From Caldisericia bacterium (GTDB taxonomy: Bacteria; Caldisericota; Caldisericia; B22-G15), in contig JASEFN010000002.1 in the NCBI GenBank assembly GCA_030018355.1, positions 172,699-236,698 of the forward strand: a stretch of 64,000 bases of DNA, in the 5' to 3' direction. A model generated the notes under the pieces. It was given only the letters and a program-made list of their open reading frames with translations, made no database searches and had not been told where the DNA came from. The translations under genes and the position numbers were made by a program. The stretch's first letter is position 1. Every line of letters starts with the position of its first letter. This document shows positions 51,876 to 63,857 of the stretch, in pieces.

Positions 51876-51917
51876 AATTAGAAAAGTTAATTTTTCTCTT
51901 TAAGGAGGTTAGAGATT

Positions 51918-54512
51918 ATTACTTCAGATAAGATAAGAAATGATTTTTTAAAATTTTTTGAAGAAAGAGATCACTTAATTTTACCCTCTTTTTCTTTGAT
52001 CCCAAAAGATCCAACTCTTCTTTTTACAGCAGCAGGAATGGTTCCGTTAAAATCTTACTTTCTTGGTGAAGAGGAACCTCCAAAAAGAAGAATAGCCACA
52101 TGTCAGGCTTGTTTAAGAACAAACGATATAGAACAAGTTGGTAAAACAATAAGACATCACACTTTTTTTGAAATGCTTGGGAATTTTTCGATTGGTGATT
52201 ATTTTAAAGAAGAGGCAATCTCTTGGGCATATACTCTTCTTACCAAAAATTGGGGTTTAGATAAAAATAGAATTTGGATTTCAATTTATCCAGATGATGA
52301 GGAGGCACTTAATATTTGGAAAAAAATTGGTATTCCTCAAGAGAGGATTGTTAAACTACCAGATAACTTTTGGCAGATGGGAGAGGAAGGACCATGTGGT
52401 CCTGATTCTGAAATTTATTATGACTTAGGAGAGGAATTTTATTGTAACGATCCTTCATTAGGTCCAGCATCCGAAGGAGATAGATTTATTGAGGTGTGGA
52501 ATCTTGTTTTTACTCAATTTGATAGAAAAAAAGATGGAACACTTAATCCGCTTCCAAGAAAAAATATAGATACTGGAATGGGTCTTGAAAGAATAACAAT
52601 GATTTTACAAAATAGGAAAAGTAATTTTGAGACAGATATATTTTTTCCAATAATAGAGAAGATAACAAAGGTTCTTAAATGTGATTATGATGAGAAAACA
52701 AAAATAAATATTAGAGTCATTGCAGACCACATTAGAGCAATTACATTTTTAATTTCTGAAAATCTATTTCCATCAAATGAAGGAAGAGGTTATGTTTTGA
52801 GAAGATTAATAAGAAGAGCCTTTTCTTCTGGATGGGCTCTTCAGGCAAGAGAACCATTTTTATATAAAATCTATCCTGTAGTTGTTGAAAAATTTAAAGA
52901 GCCTTATAAATTTTTAAGAATTGATGAAAAAATTGAGAAAGTTATTTTAAGTGAAGAAAAAACATTTATTGAGACACTTGAGAAAGGAATTGATATAATT
53001 GAGAATTTGGTAGAAAAAGCAAAAGAAGAGGGTAAAACCGAAATTTCTGGAAAAGATATATTTTTCCTTTATGACACATATGGTTTACCAGCAGAGGTTA
53101 TTGAAGATATTTTATCAACAAGAGGTCTTTCTTATAATAAAAAAGAATTTGAGGATGCTTTAAATCAGTCAAGAGAAAGAAGTAGAAAAATTGCAAAAGA
53201 ATCGAAAATATTTGAAGAGAGTTTAGATTACATAAAAATAAAAGAAGAATTTGGTGAGACAGAATTTATTGGATATGATACTTTAGAGAGCGAAGGAAAA
53301 GTTCTACTTTTAATGAAAAACGGTGGAAGAGTTCAAAAACTATCAAAAGGTGAAGAAGGATTGCTTATTCTTGACAAAACTCCATTTTATGGCGAAAAAG
53401 GCGGTCAAGTTGGAGATATTGGTGAAATAAAAGGAGAAAATTTATATATATCTATCTTAGATACAAAATCACCAGTTGAAAATTTAATAGTTCATATAAT
53501 AAGAGTTTTAGATGGAGAGATAAGAGAGGGAGATAAGGTTTATTCTTATGTTAATAGAAAAAGAAGAGAGGGAATAAAAAGAGCCCACACAGCAACACAC
53601 CTTCTTCATAAAGCATTAAGAGAGGTTCTTGGAGAACATGCAACTCAAAAAGGATCTCTTGTTTCAGAAGACTATTTAAGATTCGATTTTTCTCATTTTT
53701 CAGAAATTTCAGATGAAGAGTATCATGAAATTGAAAGAAAAATAAATAATTGGATTTATGAAAGTTTACCCGTTATAGTAAATTTTAAAAATATTGAAGA
53801 AGCAAAAAGAGAAGGTGCAATTGCTTTATTTGGTGAAAAGTATGGACAAATTGTAAGAGTTGTTTCTGTGGATGAACTAACAAAAGAGTTTTGTGGTGGA
53901 ACACATGTATCTAACACAATTGAAATAGGTGGTTTTAAAATAATTTCTGAAAGAGGAATTGGAACAAATTTAAGAAGAATTGAAGCAATAACTGGTCTTA
54001 AGGTTATAGATTATTTAAACAAACTCTCAAAAGATTTTAAGAATTTGTCTCTTTCTCTTTCTGCAAAAGATGATGAAGTCATCTTGAAAGTTCAAAAATT
54101 AAAAGATAATATAAAGGAACTTGAAAATATTATTAGAGTTTTAAAAGAAAGATATTTTGATCTTTTACTTGAAAATGCAATAAAAAATTCAATTAAAATT
54201 AAAGAATCAAAGTTAATTTTAATTCAAGATAAGATTCTAAATCCACAAGATAGCTTCTCTATCTTTGATAAATTAAAAGAGAGAGAAAAAGAATTTATAT
54301 TTATTTTCCTTTCAAATAAAGACTTAAAAAATATTTCTATATTTATTTCAGATTTATTAAAAGAAAAAATTTCAGCAAAAGAGATTCTTAACTTTTTAAA
54401 TTCAAAATATGGAGGCAAGGGAGGAGGTAAAGAGGATATTGCACAAGGAAGAATTGAAAAGGTTGAGTTAGATTTAAATTTGATAAAAGAATTTTTAATT
54501 GGAAAAATATAA
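51918..54512 (+). CDS. alaS: Alanyl-tRNA synthetase, apparent AUU start
   Basis: An 864-residue AlaRS. The class II core has DPTLLFTAAGM (motif 1 region), RHHTFFEMLGNFSIGDYFK (motif 2) and GMGLERI (motif 3). The editing domain has HTATHLLHKAL (HxxxH) and the zinc partner CGGTHV. The C-terminal C-Ala domain ends with GGGKEDIAQG. The first canonical start codon (TTG, 51996) lies inside the conserved core, yet the frame is open upstream and reads TSDKIRNDFLKFFEERDH, which matches the universal AlaRS N-terminus. The only start choices after the AAGGAGG are ATT at 51915 or 51918 (six or nine bases away). Confidence 0.95.
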   Translation: MTSDKIRNDFLKFFEERDHLILPSFSLIPKDPTLLFTAAGMVPLKSYFLGEEEPPKRRIATCQACLRTNDIEQVGKTIRHHTFFEMLGNFSIGDYFKEEAISWAYTLLTKNWGLDKNRIWISIYPDDEEALNIWKKIGIPQERIVKLPDNFWQMGEEGPCGPDSEIYYDLGEEFYCNDPSLGPASEGDRFIEVWNLVFTQFDRKKDGTLNPLPRKNIDTGMGLERITMILQNRKSNFETDIFFPIIEKITKVLKCDYDEKTKINIRVIADHIRAITFLISENLFPSNEGRGYVLRRLIRRAFSSGWALQAREPFLYKIYPVVVEKFKEPYKFLRIDEKIEKVILSEEKTFIETLEKGIDIIENLVEKAKEEGKTEISGKDIFFLYDTYGLPAEVIEDILSTRGLSYNKKEFEDALNQSRERSRKIAKESKIFEESLDYIKIKEEFGETEFIGYDTLESEGKVLLLMKNGGRVQKLSKGEEGLLILDKTPFYGEKGGQVGDIGEIKGENLYISILDTKSPVENLIVHIIRVLDGEIREGDKVYSYVNRKRREGIKRAHTATHLLHKALREVLGEHATQKGSLVSEDYLRFDFSHFSEISDEEYHEIERKINNWIYESLPVIVNFKNIEEAKREGAIALFGEKYGQIVRVVSVDELTKEFCGGTHVSNTIEIGGFKIISERGIGTNLRRIEAITGLKVIDYLNKLSKDFKNLSLSLSAKDDEVILKVQKLKDNIKELENIIRVLKERYFDLLLENAIKNSIKIKESKLILIQDKILNPQDSFSIFDKLKEREKEFIFIFLSNKDLKNISIFISDLLKEKISAKEILNFLNSKYGGKGGGKEDIAQGRIEKVELDLNLIKEFLIGKI

Positions 54513-57285: not shown

Positions 57286-58998
57286 ATGGATAAATACTCT
57301 CAATTCGGCACTAATTTAATAACTGATGGAATAATAACAGAAGATCAACTCAAAACTGCTCTTGAAGAGAGTAAAAAAAGTGGTGAGCCACTTCTTGACA
57401 CTTTAAAAAGATTGAAATATATAAATGAAGAAACATATGCAAATCTTTTAGCCAGACAATGGGGTTTTCCTTATATTGATCTTTCAACTGTTGAAATTGA
57501 TAAAGAGATAGTTCATCTTATATCTGAAGAAATTGCAAGAAGATACAAAGCAATTCCTTTTGGAAGATCAAGAGATGATAAAATTATGGTTGCAATTGCA
57601 GATCCAACTGATATTGTTGCAATAGATTATCTTAGAAATTTTATACCAAATATAAAAATATTTGTTGCATCCTATGAATCAATTTTAAGAAATATTGAAA
57701 AATATTATGCAATGGAAACAACTGTTAAAGAAGCTGTGAAAGAGATGGCTGGTGGTGCAATTGAAGTTGAAAAAGAAGAAGTGAAAGATGTTGAATTATC
57801 AATTGATGAGGCGAAAAGTTTAGCAGAAACAGCACCAATAATTAGACTTATGAATCAAATAATAACTGAAGCAATAACTTCAAATGCATCAGATATACAT
57901 ATTGAACCACAAAAAAGATTTTTAAGAATAAGATATAGAATTGATGGAATTTTAAGAGATGCTATGAATCTTCCCAAAAATATTCAACCAGGTTTAATTT
58001 CAAGAGCAAAAATTATGGCAAATTTAGATATTGCAGAAAGAAGGAGACCACAAGATGGAAGAATAAATTTAAAATTTAGAGGAAGAGAAGTGGATTTAAG
58101 AGTGTCTGTTCTTCCTGGAATCTTTGGAGAGAAAGTTGTTTTAAGAATTCTTGATAAGGAAAGATCTTTAATTCCTCTTGAACAATTAGGCTTCTCAGAA
58201 CAAAGTTTAGAGATTTTCAAAACTCTTATTAAACAACCATATGGTATGATTTTAATAACAGGACCAACAGGTTCTGGAAAATCCACTACTCTTTACGCAA
58301 TTTTAAGAATTTTGAATACTCCAGAAGTAAATATATTGACAGTAGAAGATCCTGTTGAATATCAACTTGATGGCATAACACAAGTTCAAGTTAATCCAAA
58401 AATAAATTTAACTTTTGCAAACGCTTTAAGAGCATTTTTAAGACAAGATCCAGATATAATTCTTGTGGGTGAGATAAGAGATAGAGAAACAGCACAAATA
58501 GCAATGGAAGCAGCATTAACAGGTCACCTTGTTTTTTCAACTCTTCATACAAATGATTCTTTTTCAGCACCAACAAGATTAATTGATATGGGAATTGAAC
58601 CATATTTAATTGCGTCGTCTTTAATTGGAGTTACTGCTCAAAGATTAGTAAGAAAAATTTGTAATGAGTGTAAAGAGGAGTATAAACCAAATAAATTTAT
58701 TTTAAAACAGATTGGAATAGAGGATTATGACGGAGTTTTTTATAGAGGTAGAGGATGTCAAGTATGTGGAAATAGTGGATATAAAGGAAGAATTGCAGTA
58801 CAAGAAGTTTTAAAAATTGATGATACAATAAGAGAGATGATTCTTCAAAGAAAATCATCAACAGAGATAAAAGATTATGCTGTTAATAATGGAACAATAA
58901 CTCTTCTTCAAGATGCTATTGATAAGGCTAAAAAAGGAATTACAACAGTAGAGGAAGTTATAAGAGTAATTTCAACAGTTGAGGTGTTAGAAGGATGA
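57286..58998 (+). CDS. pilB: Type IV pilus assembly ATPase PilB
   Basis: A 570-residue GspE/PilB ATPase. An N-terminal GSPII_E domain (about 10-150; ARQWGFPYIDLSTVEID), then the CTE core with RYRIDGILRD, Walker A GPTGSGKSTTLYA (about 326-334), Asp box DPVEYQLDGITQVQVN, Walker B LRQDPDIILVGEIRD, His box TGHLVFSTLHTND, and a four-Cys zinc group (CNECKEEY...CQVCG). It powers pilus extension or DNA-uptake pseudopili. Confidence 0.96.
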   Translation: MDKYSQFGTNLITDGIITEDQLKTALEESKKSGEPLLDTLKRLKYINEETYANLLARQWGFPYIDLSTVEIDKEIVHLISEEIARRYKAIPFGRSRDDKIMVAIADPTDIVAIDYLRNFIPNIKIFVASYESILRNIEKYYAMETTVKEAVKEMAGGAIEVEKEEVKDVELSIDEAKSLAETAPIIRLMNQIITEAITSNASDIHIEPQKRFLRIRYRIDGILRDAMNLPKNIQPGLISRAKIMANLDIAERRRPQDGRINLKFRGREVDLRVSVLPGIFGEKVVLRILDKERSLIPLEQLGFSEQSLEIFKTLIKQPYGMILITGPTGSGKSTTLYAILRILNTPEVNILTVEDPVEYQLDGITQVQVNPKINLTFANALRAFLRQDPDIILVGEIRDRETAQIAMEAALTGHLVFSTLHTNDSFSAPTRLIDMGIEPYLIASSLIGVTAQRLVRKICNECKEEYKPNKFILKQIGIEDYDGVFYRGRGCQVCGNSGYKGRIAVQEVLKIDDTIREMILQRKSSTEIKDYAVNNGTITLLQDAIDKAKKGITTVEEVIRVISTVEVLEG

Positions 58999-60080
58999 TA
59001 TATAAATTAGATGATTTATTGAAGATTTGTAAAGAGAAAAATGCTTCAGATCTTCATTTAACAGCAGGTCTTCCACCTGTATTTAGAATAAAAAAGAATT
59101 TAATTCCATTAAAGGGCGATCCATTAACACCTGAGGAGATTGAGGAGTTAATTTATCCAATAATGAATGATGAACAAAAAAGAGTTTTCGAAGAAAATTG
59201 GGAAATAGATTTTTCTTTTGGTGTACCGCATGTTGGAAGATTTAGAGTTAATGTATTTAGACAGAGACAAACAGTTGCGGCAGCATTTAGAGTGATACCT
59301 TGGGAAATTCCAACATTTGAAGAGTTGGGTCTTCCACCTGTTATGAATAAAGTAGTTGAACTTGAAAAAGGCTTTGTATTGGTAACTGGTGCAACAGGTT
59401 CAGGAAAATCAACGACTCTTGCATCTATAATTGATAAAATTAATGCAACAAAAAGCGTTCATATAATAACAATAGAAGATCCTATTGAATATCTATTTAG
59501 ACACAAAAGGAGTATTGTTGTTCAGAGAGAACTTGGTTCTGATACAAAATCTTTTCCAAATGCATTAAGAAGTGTTTTAAGAGAAGATCCAGATGTGATC
59601 CTTGTTGGTGAAATGAGAGATCTTGAAACTATTTCAGCAGCAATAACTGCAGCAGAAACAGGTCATCTTGTTTTTGCAACACTCCACACAAATACAGCTG
59701 CACAATCTATTGATAGAATAATAGATGTTTTTCCACCATATCAACAACAACAGATTAGAATTCAACTCTCAAATAACTTATCTGCAATTTTTTCACAACA
59801 ACTTATTCCAAGAAAAGATGGTCAAGGTCTTGTTCTTGCAACTGAAGTTTTAATAGTAACACCCGCAGTAAGGAATCTTATAAGAGAAAATAAAACATAT
59901 CAGATAAATACAATAATTCAAACTTCAAGAGATATTGGTATGCAAACAATGAATCAATCTTTAAAAGATTTATATGATAGAGGATTAATCACTTATGATG
60001 ATGCAATTAAATATTCTTATGATAGGGAGGAGATGATTAAAATATTAGGAAGAGAGAGTTATGGCAAAGTTCAAATATAA
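58995..60080 (+). CDS. pilT: Type IV pilus retraction ATPase PilT
   Basis: A 361-residue PilT. ASDLHLTAGLPPVFRI at the N-terminus, Walker A GATGSGKSTTLASI (about 135), LREDPDVILVGEMRDLETI, TGHLVFATLHTNTAAQSIDRI, and the AIRNLIRE-like signature (PAVRNLIRENK). It depolymerises pili for twitching and DNA uptake. Overlaps pilB by four bases and pilC by 20. Confidence 0.96.
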   Translation: MIYKLDDLLKICKEKNASDLHLTAGLPPVFRIKKNLIPLKGDPLTPEEIEELIYPIMNDEQKRVFEENWEIDFSFGVPHVGRFRVNVFRQRQTVAAAFRVIPWEIPTFEELGLPPVMNKVVELEKGFVLVTGATGSGKSTTLASIIDKINATKSVHIITIEDPIEYLFRHKRSIVVQRELGSDTKSFPNALRSVLREDPDVILVGEMRDLETISAAITAAETGHLVFATLHTNTAAQSIDRIIDVFPPYQQQQIRIQLSNNLSAIFSQQLIPRKDGQGLVLATEVLIVTPAVRNLIRENKTYQINTIIQTSRDIGMQTMNQSLKDLYDRGLITYDDAIKYSYDREEMIKILGRESYGKVQI

Positions 60081-61278
60081 AGGAAGAGATAGTTATGGAA
60101 AAGTAGTGGAGGGTGTTTTAGAAGCATCTAATGCAGAAGAACTCGAATCAACTCTTAAAAAAAGAGGCTTAATTCCAATTAAAATTGAAAAAAGCGAAGA
60201 GAGTGGAATAGCAGGAATTTTATATAGATTTTTTGGTAAAAGGGGAGTTAGCATTAAAGATCTTCTTTTCTTTACAAGACAATTCACTACTATGCTTAAA
60301 GCAGGACTCCCCTTAACAAGAATTCTTGATATACTCTCATATCAATCACCAACTAAAAAATTAAGAGAAGTTGCAAAAGAATTAAAAAGAAATGTTGAAT
60401 CTGGAATTCCATTATCAACAAGTTTAATGAATTATCCAACAATTTTTTCAAATCTTTATGTAAGTATGGTAAGAGCAGGAGAAGTCGGAGGAACACTTGA
60501 TAGATCTTTAGAAAGAATAACTGAGTTTCTTGAAAATGATTATAGATTAAGACAAAAAATAAAAAGTGCAATGAGTTATCCAATGTTTGTTCTTATTTTC
60601 GCATTATCTCTTGGATTTTTTATGCTAACAATTTTTGTTCCAAGATTTGCAGGATTTTTTGCAGATTTAAATGTTCCACTTCCTGCTATGACAGCATTTA
60701 CACTCAATCTTTCAAGAACACTTATTAAATATTGGTGGTTAATATTAGGTGCTTTAATAGGTGGATTTGTAGTATACAATGCATATAAATCAACTCCATT
60801 TGGTAAAGAAAGAGTAGATAGGGGAAAACTTAGAATGCCAATTCTTGGAAAAGTAAATCACCTTACAATAATGGCAAGATTTACAGGAACCCTTTCTTCT
60901 CTTCTTGCTGCTGGTGTTCCACTTCTTCAAGCATTAGACACTGTTGCTTCAACTGTTGATAATGTGATAATTGAAAGAGAAATAACAAAAATCGAAGATA
61001 GAGTAAGAAGAGGAGAAACTCTTTCTAAACCAATGGAAGATTCGGGACTTTTTACTCCAATGGTTGTTCAAATGACCGCAGTTGGTGAAGAAACTGGAGA
61101 ATTGGAGGGAATGCTTAAAAAAGTATCAGAATTTTATGAAGAAGAGGTAGATAGAGCAGTGGGGCAATTAACATCAATGGTTGAACCACTTCTCATAATT
61201 TTTGTTGGAGGAATTATTGGATTTATAGTAATTTCTCTTTATCTTCCAATTTTCTATATGGTTGGTCAAATTCAATAA
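60061..61278 (+). CDS. pilC: Type IV pilus inner membrane platform protein PilC
   Basis: A 405-residue GspF/PilC protein. FKYKGRDSYGKVVEGVLEA is the N-terminal motif, followed by two T2SSF domains (each with LLFFTRQFTTMLKAGLPL- or FTGTLSSLLAAGVPLLQAL-type openings) and three membrane helices (about 172-192, 220-240 and 375-398). It anchors the motor ATPases. No pilin, PilM-Q or prepilin peptidase gene is in the window. Confidence 0.96.
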   Translation: MAKFKYKGRDSYGKVVEGVLEASNAEELESTLKKRGLIPIKIEKSEESGIAGILYRFFGKRGVSIKDLLFFTRQFTTMLKAGLPLTRILDILSYQSPTKKLREVAKELKRNVESGIPLSTSLMNYPTIFSNLYVSMVRAGEVGGTLDRSLERITEFLENDYRLRQKIKSAMSYPMFVLIFALSLGFFMLTIFVPRFAGFFADLNVPLPAMTAFTLNLSRTLIKYWWLILGALIGGFVVYNAYKSTPFGKERVDRGKLRMPILGKVNHLTIMARFTGTLSSLLAAGVPLLQALDTVASTVDNVIIEREITKIEDRVRRGETLSKPMEDSGLFTPMVVQMTAVGEETGELEGMLKKVSEFYEEEVDRAVGQLTSMVEPLLIIFVGGIIGFIVISLYLPIFYMVGQIQ

Positions 61279-61297
61279 AAAAGTGGAGGATTTTTAG

Positions 61298-62056
61298 ATT
61301 AAAGATAAAGATTTTCTTGGTTCACAAGGAAAATTAATTGATATTTTAGAATTTATTTTTTTAAAAGATGAACCATATATTGATTTAAGTGAGATATCAG
61401 ATCTTTTTAAATTAAGTAAATCTGGAAGTTATAGAATTTTATCCATTTTAGTAAAAAAGGGTTTTTTAGAACATAAAAAGGGTGATGCCAGATATTTTTT
61501 AACAAAAAAAATTTTTGATATTTCTAAAAAATTAATTTTTAAAGAGCCAATCTACTTTATCATAGAAAATATTTTAGTTGAATTAGGAAATAAATTAAAA
61601 GAAGAAATATACTTTTTAAAAATTGAAAATAGTGAATTAAAAATTATCTATTCAAATTCAAAGAAAAACAATTATGAGTTTTTTCCTATTCATGCAACAT
61701 CATTTGGCAAAGTAATTTTATCCTTTTTAGATAATTCAAAAAGAAAAGAGATTTTTAATAAAATTAATTTTGAAAAGTATACTATTTATACAAAAGATAA
61801 TTTAAATGAATTTTTAAAAGAAATAAAAAAGATAAAAAAAGATGGATTTTCTTTATCAATTGAAGAATTTACTTATGGAATATGTGATTTATCATTTCCT
61901 ATTTTTGACAATGTTCAAGATAAAGTTTATTCTCTGGGAGTTAGATTTTCAAAAACAAAACTATCTGAATTATATCTTAATGAGATGATTCAAGTTTTAA
62001 AACAAACAAAAGATTTATTGGAAAAAAATCTAATTAACTTTTACAAATTTAAATAA
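61298..62056 (+). CDS. IclR family transcriptional regulator, apparent AUU start
   Basis: A 252-residue intact frame with no ATG, GTG or TTG until close to its end. An N-terminal winged helix (KLIDILEFIFLKD, DLSEISDLFKLSKSGSYRIL, KGDARYFLT) is followed by an effector domain (FFPIHATSFGKVILSFL; FSLSIEEFTYGICDLSFPIF) in the order seen in IclR regulators. A TAG stop lies directly before the ATT at 61298, and GGAGG lies eight bases before that ATT, so ATT is the natural start. It may be co-transcribed with pilC, 20 bases upstream. Target genes unknown; the GH99-like gene downstream is a candidate. Confidence 0.82.
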   Translation: MKDKDFLGSQGKLIDILEFIFLKDEPYIDLSEISDLFKLSKSGSYRILSILVKKGFLEHKKGDARYFLTKKIFDISKKLIFKEPIYFIIENILVELGNKLKEEIYFLKIENSELKIIYSNSKKNNYEFFPIHATSFGKVILSFLDNSKRKEIFNKINFEKYTIYTKDNLNEFLKEIKKIKKDGFSLSIEEFTYGICDLSFPIFDNVQDKVYSLGVRFSKTKLSELYLNEMIQVLKQTKDLLEKNLINFYKFK

Positions 62057-62378
62057 ATATAAACGCCATAAATTCAAAATATATTGACTTCATTGAAAGC
62101 ATAAGATTTATCTAATTTTTGTATTTATATGAAGATAAAAAGAGAATTAAAAATTTTCTTCTTTTTTGAAAAATATGGATTATAAGTAAACCTAAATTTA
62201 TATTTTTCTATGCCTGTTTTAATCTTAGTAAGTAAATTGATATTCTATTAAATATTAAATTAGATGATACAATATAGGTAGATTTTTTTAAATTTTTAGC
62301 GTGTTTGGACTTATATTAAAAATATGAGATTTTATCAAAAATAAATAAATAAAAAATAGAAAAATGGAGGTAAAAAAG
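62057..62378. other. AT-rich intergenic region, no gene seen
   Basis: About 320 bases of very AT-rich DNA between the IclR-family gene and the GH99-like gene. All frames are interrupted. It ends with the ATGGAGG ribosome site for the GH99-like gene. It must hold that gene's promoter, but no -35/-10 pair stands out. Confidence 0.5.
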
Positions 62379-63857
62379 ATGAAAAACAAAAAAATATTAA
62401 TTAAAATTACAATTTCTATTTTAATAGTAATTGGATTTATATTTTGTGTTCAAATACCTATTATAACAACCTTTTCGTCTATAAATAATTCAAAGCCACC
62501 TTCTTTAGCTAATTTTAATATCCCAATTTATATTGATTATTATCATCTTAGAATAGAATATTTAACAACTTCAGATTGGACAACTCTTGAATTAGTTAAT
62601 ATGGTAGAAACAATTTTAACTATGAGATTTATTGAGAAAATAGGAATACCAACTCATATTGGATTGGAATATAATATGTTAAGTTTAAACCAACCACTTG
62701 AAGAATCTATTAAAGAAAAGATGGTAGGTATGAAAGTTGATTTTGCAATTTCTTCAGAAAAAATTACTCAACCTCTTTTTTTCATTCTTAAAAAGGGTAA
62801 TTTGGGAAAAAGCATTGTAAGAATTTTTATTATTACAAATGAAAAGATCCAGATTATTAAAGAAATTACGCATATTGGTGAAGTTCCAGGTAGTGAAGGA
62901 TTAAATCCCATATCATTTGAAATTGATCTAAAATTACTAAAAAATCTTTCACATACTCAAATAGTAATTAATCGTCCTACTAAAAAAATGATTCTGTCTT
63001 TTTATTATCCATGGTATCATGAATATGATTGGTCAAGTCCTATGCTTAGAGATAGACCATTAAAATTATATTCTTCAAATGACCCAAAGGCAATTCTTCG
63101 CCAAATTACACAGGCTCAACAAGCAGGAATAGATGGTTTTATCTCTTCATGGTGGGGGCCAAAACATTATGAAGATCAAAATTTAGAAATACTTCTAAAT
63201 TTAGCACATAAAAAAAATTTCTCTATCTCAATCTATTTTGAAACCTTAACTGAAACTGGTCCTCGAGATGAGGAAGAAATTTATCAAATGCTTAAATATA
63301 TTATTGATAAATATGGAGATCATCCAGCATTTTTAAAAATTGATGGTAAACCTGTTATTGTTATTTGGGCATCACAAGAAGTTCCACTTAAAACATGGGA
63401 AAATATTTTTACAAAACTAAGAAATGAAGGAAGAGATGCTATTTATATTGGGTGCGGCTATAATATTGATAATCTTAATGTATTTGATGGAATACATGAA
63501 TATGGAATTTTTGGTTTCAAAGATCTTAATGAAGTTTATAAAACTGTAAGTTCTTATACTCGTTATTTTTCATTGTTATCAGATGAGCCTAACAAATCAA
63601 AAATTTGGGTTGCAACTGTTCAGCCGGGTTATGATGATCGACTTATACCAGGAAGAATAGGTTATGTAAAAGATAGAGAAAATGGTTGGTGCTATTGGAA
63701 TACATTTGAAGCAGCAATAGAAAGTGATCCAGATTTAATTTTTATAACTACATGGAATGAATGGTGGGAACATACATATATTGAGCCAAGTGAACTTTAC
63801 GGGGGTATATATTTATGGATAACCTATGTATTTGCTAGCAAATGGAAAGGCCATTAA
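62379..63857 (+). CDS. GH99-like (endo-alpha-mannosidase fold) exported protein
   Basis: About 492 residues with an N-terminal signal anchor (about 7-27). The C-terminal 280 residues resemble glycoside hydrolase family 99-like proteins: MILSFYYPWYHEYDW, AGIDGFISSWWGPK, SIYFETLTETGPRD, YGDHPAFLKIDGKPVIVIWAS, and FITTWNEWWEHTYIEPSE. GH99 enzymes cut alpha-mannosides; GH99-like proteins also occur in polysaccharide loci with unknown specificity. The N-terminal 190 residues are beta-rich and unassigned. I use the ATG at 62379, eight bases after ATGGAGG; the ATG at 62364 lies within the ribosome site. Confidence 0.75.
   Translation: MKNKKILIKITISILIVIGFIFCVQIPIITTFSSINNSKPPSLANFNIPIYIDYYHLRIEYLTTSDWTTLELVNMVETILTMRFIEKIGIPTHIGLEYNMLSLNQPLEESIKEKMVGMKVDFAISSEKITQPLFFILKKGNLGKSIVRIFIITNEKIQIIKEITHIGEVPGSEGLNPISFEIDLKLLKNLSHTQIVINRPTKKMILSFYYPWYHEYDWSSPMLRDRPLKLYSSNDPKAILRQITQAQQAGIDGFISSWWGPKHYEDQNLEILLNLAHKKNFSISIYFETLTETGPRDEEEIYQMLKYIIDKYGDHPAFLKIDGKPVIVIWASQEVPLKTWENIFTKLRNEGRDAIYIGCGYNIDNLNVFDGIHEYGIFGFKDLNEVYKTVSSYTRYFSLLSDEPNKSKIWVATVQPGYDDRLIPGRIGYVKDRENGWCYWNTFEAAIESDPDLIFITTWNEWWEHTYIEPSELYGGIYLWITYVFASKWKGH

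Follow-up and report, generated by a model that had tools for sequence, protein, structure and literature searches.

We identified, in the 64,000-nt stretch of DNA analysed here (the window), an open reading frame (ORF) that most probably encodes a functional transcription regulator of the IclR family, with translation beginning at an AUU codon at position 61298; on the strength of sequence comparisons, we assign this reading a probability of roughly 0.83. AUU initiation is well supported by the protein family match, by purifying selection on the gene, by conservation that begins at the ATT, and by other genes of the source genome with AUU or AUC starts, infC and the essential alaS among them.

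The iclR frame and its product

The iclR-family coding sequence occupies 61298-62056 on the plus strand, with 252 sense codons from the AUU and a TAA stop at 62054-62056. The proposed ATT start codon (61298-61300) is abutted on its 5' side by an in-frame TAG (61295-61297), and a GGAGG Shine-Dalgarno (SD) element (61285-61289) is separated from it by an 8-nt spacer (61290-61297). These coordinates bear out the first-pass annotation, which had described a TAG directly before the ATT, GGAGG eight bases ahead of it, and an open 252-codon frame with no canonical start until near the C-terminus: beyond the TAG, an in-frame ATG, GTG or TTG (NTG) is first met at codon 230 (61985). "No canonical start" here means none after the TAG; an in-frame GTG (61283-61285; TTG in the congener G003) lies 5' of the TAG and overlaps the GGAGG, and would be unusable as a start without readthrough.

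Among 766 coding ORFs, taken from stretches covering about 60% of the source genome (G000), the iclR ORF and one other had no NTG in their first 130 codons; that other ORF (G000:C2:93605-94507) looks frameshifted. Given the codon usage of the source genome, the probability that one ORF would run for 229 codons without NTG is about 0.0035, and that of a GGAGG lying 5-9 nt before a random site is about 0.0034. RNA folding of the iclR start region revealed no significant structure, and a scan for promoters and terminators returned nothing above chance.

The proposal that the gene is intact and of the IclR family was upheld by a Pfam family match, a full-length fold match and purifying selection. 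The C-terminal effector-binding domain (IclR_C, PF01614) matched at 69.8 bits against a cut-off of 24. The N-terminal winged helix-turn-helix (HTH_IclR, PF09339) reached 18.4 bits, short of the 22-bit cut-off; a winged helix-turn-helix of the IclR type is consistent with both the predicted model and the Foldseek matches over the full length. The best solved relative was Thermotoga maritima IclR (PDB 1mkm), aligned over residues 11-242 (Foldseek to 1mkm_A, E 2.4e-15, 246 columns); the overall TM of about 0.6 reflects domains that are placed differently. The two proteins are alike in domain order and fold, with 25% identity in the structural alignment, whereas the genomic settings of their genes differ. 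Our structure model, built from four sequences, had a mean pLDDT of 78.7, low at residues 1-8, and its helix 1 spans residues 7-22. Because the protein aligns to 1mkm and the match of its model to IclR structures extends over the whole length, the AUU-started product appears to be complete. It is the sole IclR homologue found in the source genome.

The iclR gene lies directly 3' of three pilus genes, all on the plus strand: a pilB-like ATPase gene (T2SSE, MshEN; 57286-58998), a pilT-like ATPase gene (58995-60080) and a pilC-like (T2SSF) gene (60061-61278), whose stop is 19 nt before the iclR ATT. It follows pilC immediately in all four genomes of the genus that were compared (in G001 the iclR gene is divided over two contigs). 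The next gene in the window (62364-63857, plus strand) codes for a protein resembling glycosyl hydrolase family 99 and is not a conserved neighbour: different genes lie 3' of iclR in G003.

The start site in congeners

Comparison with G003 showed 62% identity, with a dN of 0.23, a dS of 0.93 and a dN/dS of about 0.25. Counted from the ATT of the source genome and the ATA that occupies the matching codon in G003, residues 1-18 are the same in both proteins, and the nucleotide differences there are all synonymous. The G003 ATA stands 8 nt after TGGAGG, and an in-frame TTG is also present upstream, which might be used as the start in place of the ATA. G001 and G002 instead have ATG, offset by one codon and 3 nt after the pilC stop. 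Across the genus, then, the start has shifted between AUG, AUU and AUA (or UUG), and the gene has remained under purifying selection.

The first-pass annotation had asked whether relatives conserve the ATT, and had named ATG in relatives together with decay of this copy as the mark of a mutation. The alignment gave a mixed answer to both points. The codon position is kept in G003, as ATA (with the upstream TTG as well), but ATT itself is not; ATG does occur in two congeners, one codon away, but no decay accompanies it, and the third congener has ATA. The absence of decay and the ATA in that congener make a mutation followed by decay, or a sequencing error, a poor explanation.

It is improbable, for related reasons, that iclR is a young pseudogene that has lately lost its start codon. 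A very recent loss would leave no other trace, and two congeners do have an ATG nearby; against this stand the low dN/dS, a frame free of internal stops and frameshifts, a good and properly spaced SD element, and the ATA at the same codon in a congener.

The comparison also bears on the GTG at 61283, which could be the true start if the TAG four codons later were read through or recoded. The GTG and the TTG of G003 align codon for codon, and the GAG that comes next is present in both genomes. That GAG, however, is the one codon kept between GTG/TTG and ATT; the intervening codons are otherwise not conserved, and one of them is the TAG. The GTG runs into the GGAGG and lacks an SD element of its own. 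TAG is the normal stop of 83 of the 766 ORFs, a tRNA with a CUA anticodon was not found in about 60% of the genome, and alaS and infC have AUU starts without any GTG-TAG arrangement. On the conservation boundary, the ordinary use of TAG and the lack of a CUA tRNA in the sample, we rejected readthrough from the GTG as very improbable.

Other probable AUU, AUC and AUA starts and their likely effect

A stronger case than iclR itself lies 7 kb upstream, in alaS (51915-54512, plus strand). Its ATT at 51915, followed by a second ATT at 51918, lies 6 nt after an AAGGAGG SD element (51902-51908). No canonical start precedes the conserved core: the first NTG is a TTG 27 codons downstream of the ATT, and in the protein read from the AUU the match to the synthetase Pfam domain opens at residue 6, with profile position 1. 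The start site reads ATC in G001 and G002, and ATG in G003 and G004; relatives in the wider class use ATG, TTG or GTG. The gene is essential, and one full-length copy was found in the source genome, with two further hits that cover only part of the profile. Since this single copy lacks a canonical start, AUU must be a usable start codon in the source bacterium.

Two further genes point the same way. The infC gene starts with ATT behind GGGGGTGA in each of the five family genomes (source copy G000:C3:56205-56702, minus strand). In none of the four genomes of the genus does an NTG occur near the start of a membrane protein gene (G000:C1:123319-124236) whose product we take by eye from its sequence to be DUF58-like and which had no Pfam match at E 0.001. 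The 3' end of a moxR-like gene overlaps the ATC of the DUF58-like gene, with its AAAGGAG, and the moxR-like stop shares bases with an ATT as TAATT. With this arrangement either codon could start the DUF58-like gene, and part of the conservation of its NTG-free start is due to the overlap. A transglutaminase-like gene (G000:C2:163345-164799, minus strand) is a weaker candidate for an AUU, AUC or AUA (AUH) start: in G000 and G003 its N-terminus is NTG-free over a long stretch, and an AUA comes just after the stop of the upstream gene; no SD element is suitably spaced, and a TTG may be the start in G001 and G002.

These recurrences leave little room for sequencing or assembly error as the origin of the iclR start codon. 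The source genome is a draft of 14 contigs, but AUH codons occur at the same sites in independent genomes (three for alaS, four for the DUF58-like gene and five for infC), and we regard error as extremely unlikely. There was likewise no sign that an altered IF3 or anti-SD sequence causes the AUU starts: the IF3 of the source genome is ordinary by sequence and the 16S of G001 carries a standard anti-SD, although a search for 16S in G000 did not find it.

Under SD-directed AUU initiation, the GGAGG 8 nt upstream would bring the iclR AUU into the ribosomal P site, to be read by fMet-tRNA with pairing at the first two bases and a mismatch at the third. Initiation would then be inefficient, keeping the regulator scarce, and may vary with IF3 as it does for infC; ribosomes finishing pilC 19 nt upstream could plausibly help to feed the site. 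To our knowledge, established bacterial genes with AUU, AUA or AUC starts are few, and most come from model organisms. In Staphylococcus aureus, ccpN (AUA, a transcription repressor) and cvfC1 (AUU, a putative regulator) have SD-directed starts conserved in relatives, and AUU and AUA reporters give about 10% of the AUG yield, with ccpN reaching up to 30% in rich medium (PMC13009471). Like iclR, these are regulators with AUH starts and SD-directed initiation; their SD elements are extended and their starts were mapped by ribosome profiling, whereas iclR has a weaker 5-nt GGAGG match and its evidence is comparative. From these published measurements on comparable starts, the AUU start is expected to lower the yield of iclR.

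IF3 control of iclR is a plausible hypothesis. The AUU start of Escherichia coli infC is subject to autoregulation by IF3 (PMC5472188); there, as in iclR, the AUU stands behind an SD element, and infC of the source genome also has AUU. However, infC encodes IF3 itself whereas iclR encodes a regulator, and the feedback loop is known for infC only. In Streptomyces, IF3 represses the GTC start of sigR (PMC5472188), so that a non-canonical start limits the dose of a regulator; the codon there is GTC rather than AUU, and IF3 repression is demonstrated for sigR and hypothetical for iclR. In vitro, IF3 accepts nothing but Watson-Crick pairing at positions 1 and 2, and more IF3 decreases the fraction of full-length product from AUU/CAU (PMC10158994). 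E. coli pcnB is reported, through a citation, as a chromosomal AUU-start gene besides infC (Binns and Masters 2002, cited in PMC13009471); the start is alike, and the product is a poly(A) polymerase rather than an IclR regulator.

It is quite possible, though we hold the view tentatively, that AUU initiation at iclR is real but neutral, AUG drifting to AUU, AUC or AUA and back in an A+T-rich lineage without any regulatory role. Such drift would account for starts that vary among AUU, AUA, AUC and AUG between congeners, and for the small number of genes affected. Less easily reconciled with it are the strong cut in yield caused by AUH starts in S. aureus (PMC13009471) and the recurrence of non-AUG starts, which alaS shows in three of four congeners and the DUF58-like gene in all four (with the overlap with moxR noted above). 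A more ambitious proposal, which we consider doubtful, is that AUU, AUC and AUA starts define a group of genes in this lineage that IF3 senses (infC, alaS, iclR, the DUF58-like gene and perhaps the transglutaminase-like gene), through which initiation fidelity would jointly tune alanyl-tRNA supply, a regulator adjacent to a pilus operon, and IF3.

Scanning for further AUH-started genes

The kind of gene to which iclR would belong is already defined by ccpN and cvfC1 of S. aureus, sigR of Streptomyces, and pcnB and infC of E. coli. For specialists, the notable features are the recurrence of AUH starts in one lineage and their reach to an essential tRNA synthetase gene. Gene callers restricted to ATG, GTG and TTG would drop iclR and truncate alaS, and the number of such genes is probably underestimated as a result; a search across relatives for conserved NTG-free N-termini behind SD elements finds AUH genes from sequence alone.

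As a control, genomes were scanned for ORFs with an NTG-free N-terminus, an SD core and an in-frame codon at 5-9 nt. Five AUH genes were listed for G000, and none in 387 kb of G003 or in 400 kb of G018; this control is limited, the scan being blind to the G003 iclR gene (upstream TTG) and to the G003 DUF58-like gene (cut by the edge of the sample). One of the five, a gatB-like ORF with an SD element and ATT (C1:173624-175084), is probably false, as its homology begins at a later ATG. In a screen of orthologs for further AUH starts, nearly all of the flagged pairs listed proved to be leaders conserved ahead of an ordinary start.

Three ORFs of G000 with late NTG codons, C2:93605-94507, C2:137760-138650 and C2:171077-171613, look frameshifted or broken rather than AUH-started. 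In the window itself, a 177-codon open frame on the minus strand (1789-2322) has its first NTG at codon 78 and is possibly frameshifted; no SD-placed AUH codon was found in it. The ORF at C2:137760-138650 (minus strand) is HD-GYP-like and has no NTG before codon 104; an upstream ATG in another frame together with an A7 T5 run suggests a frameshift or a phase-variable site.
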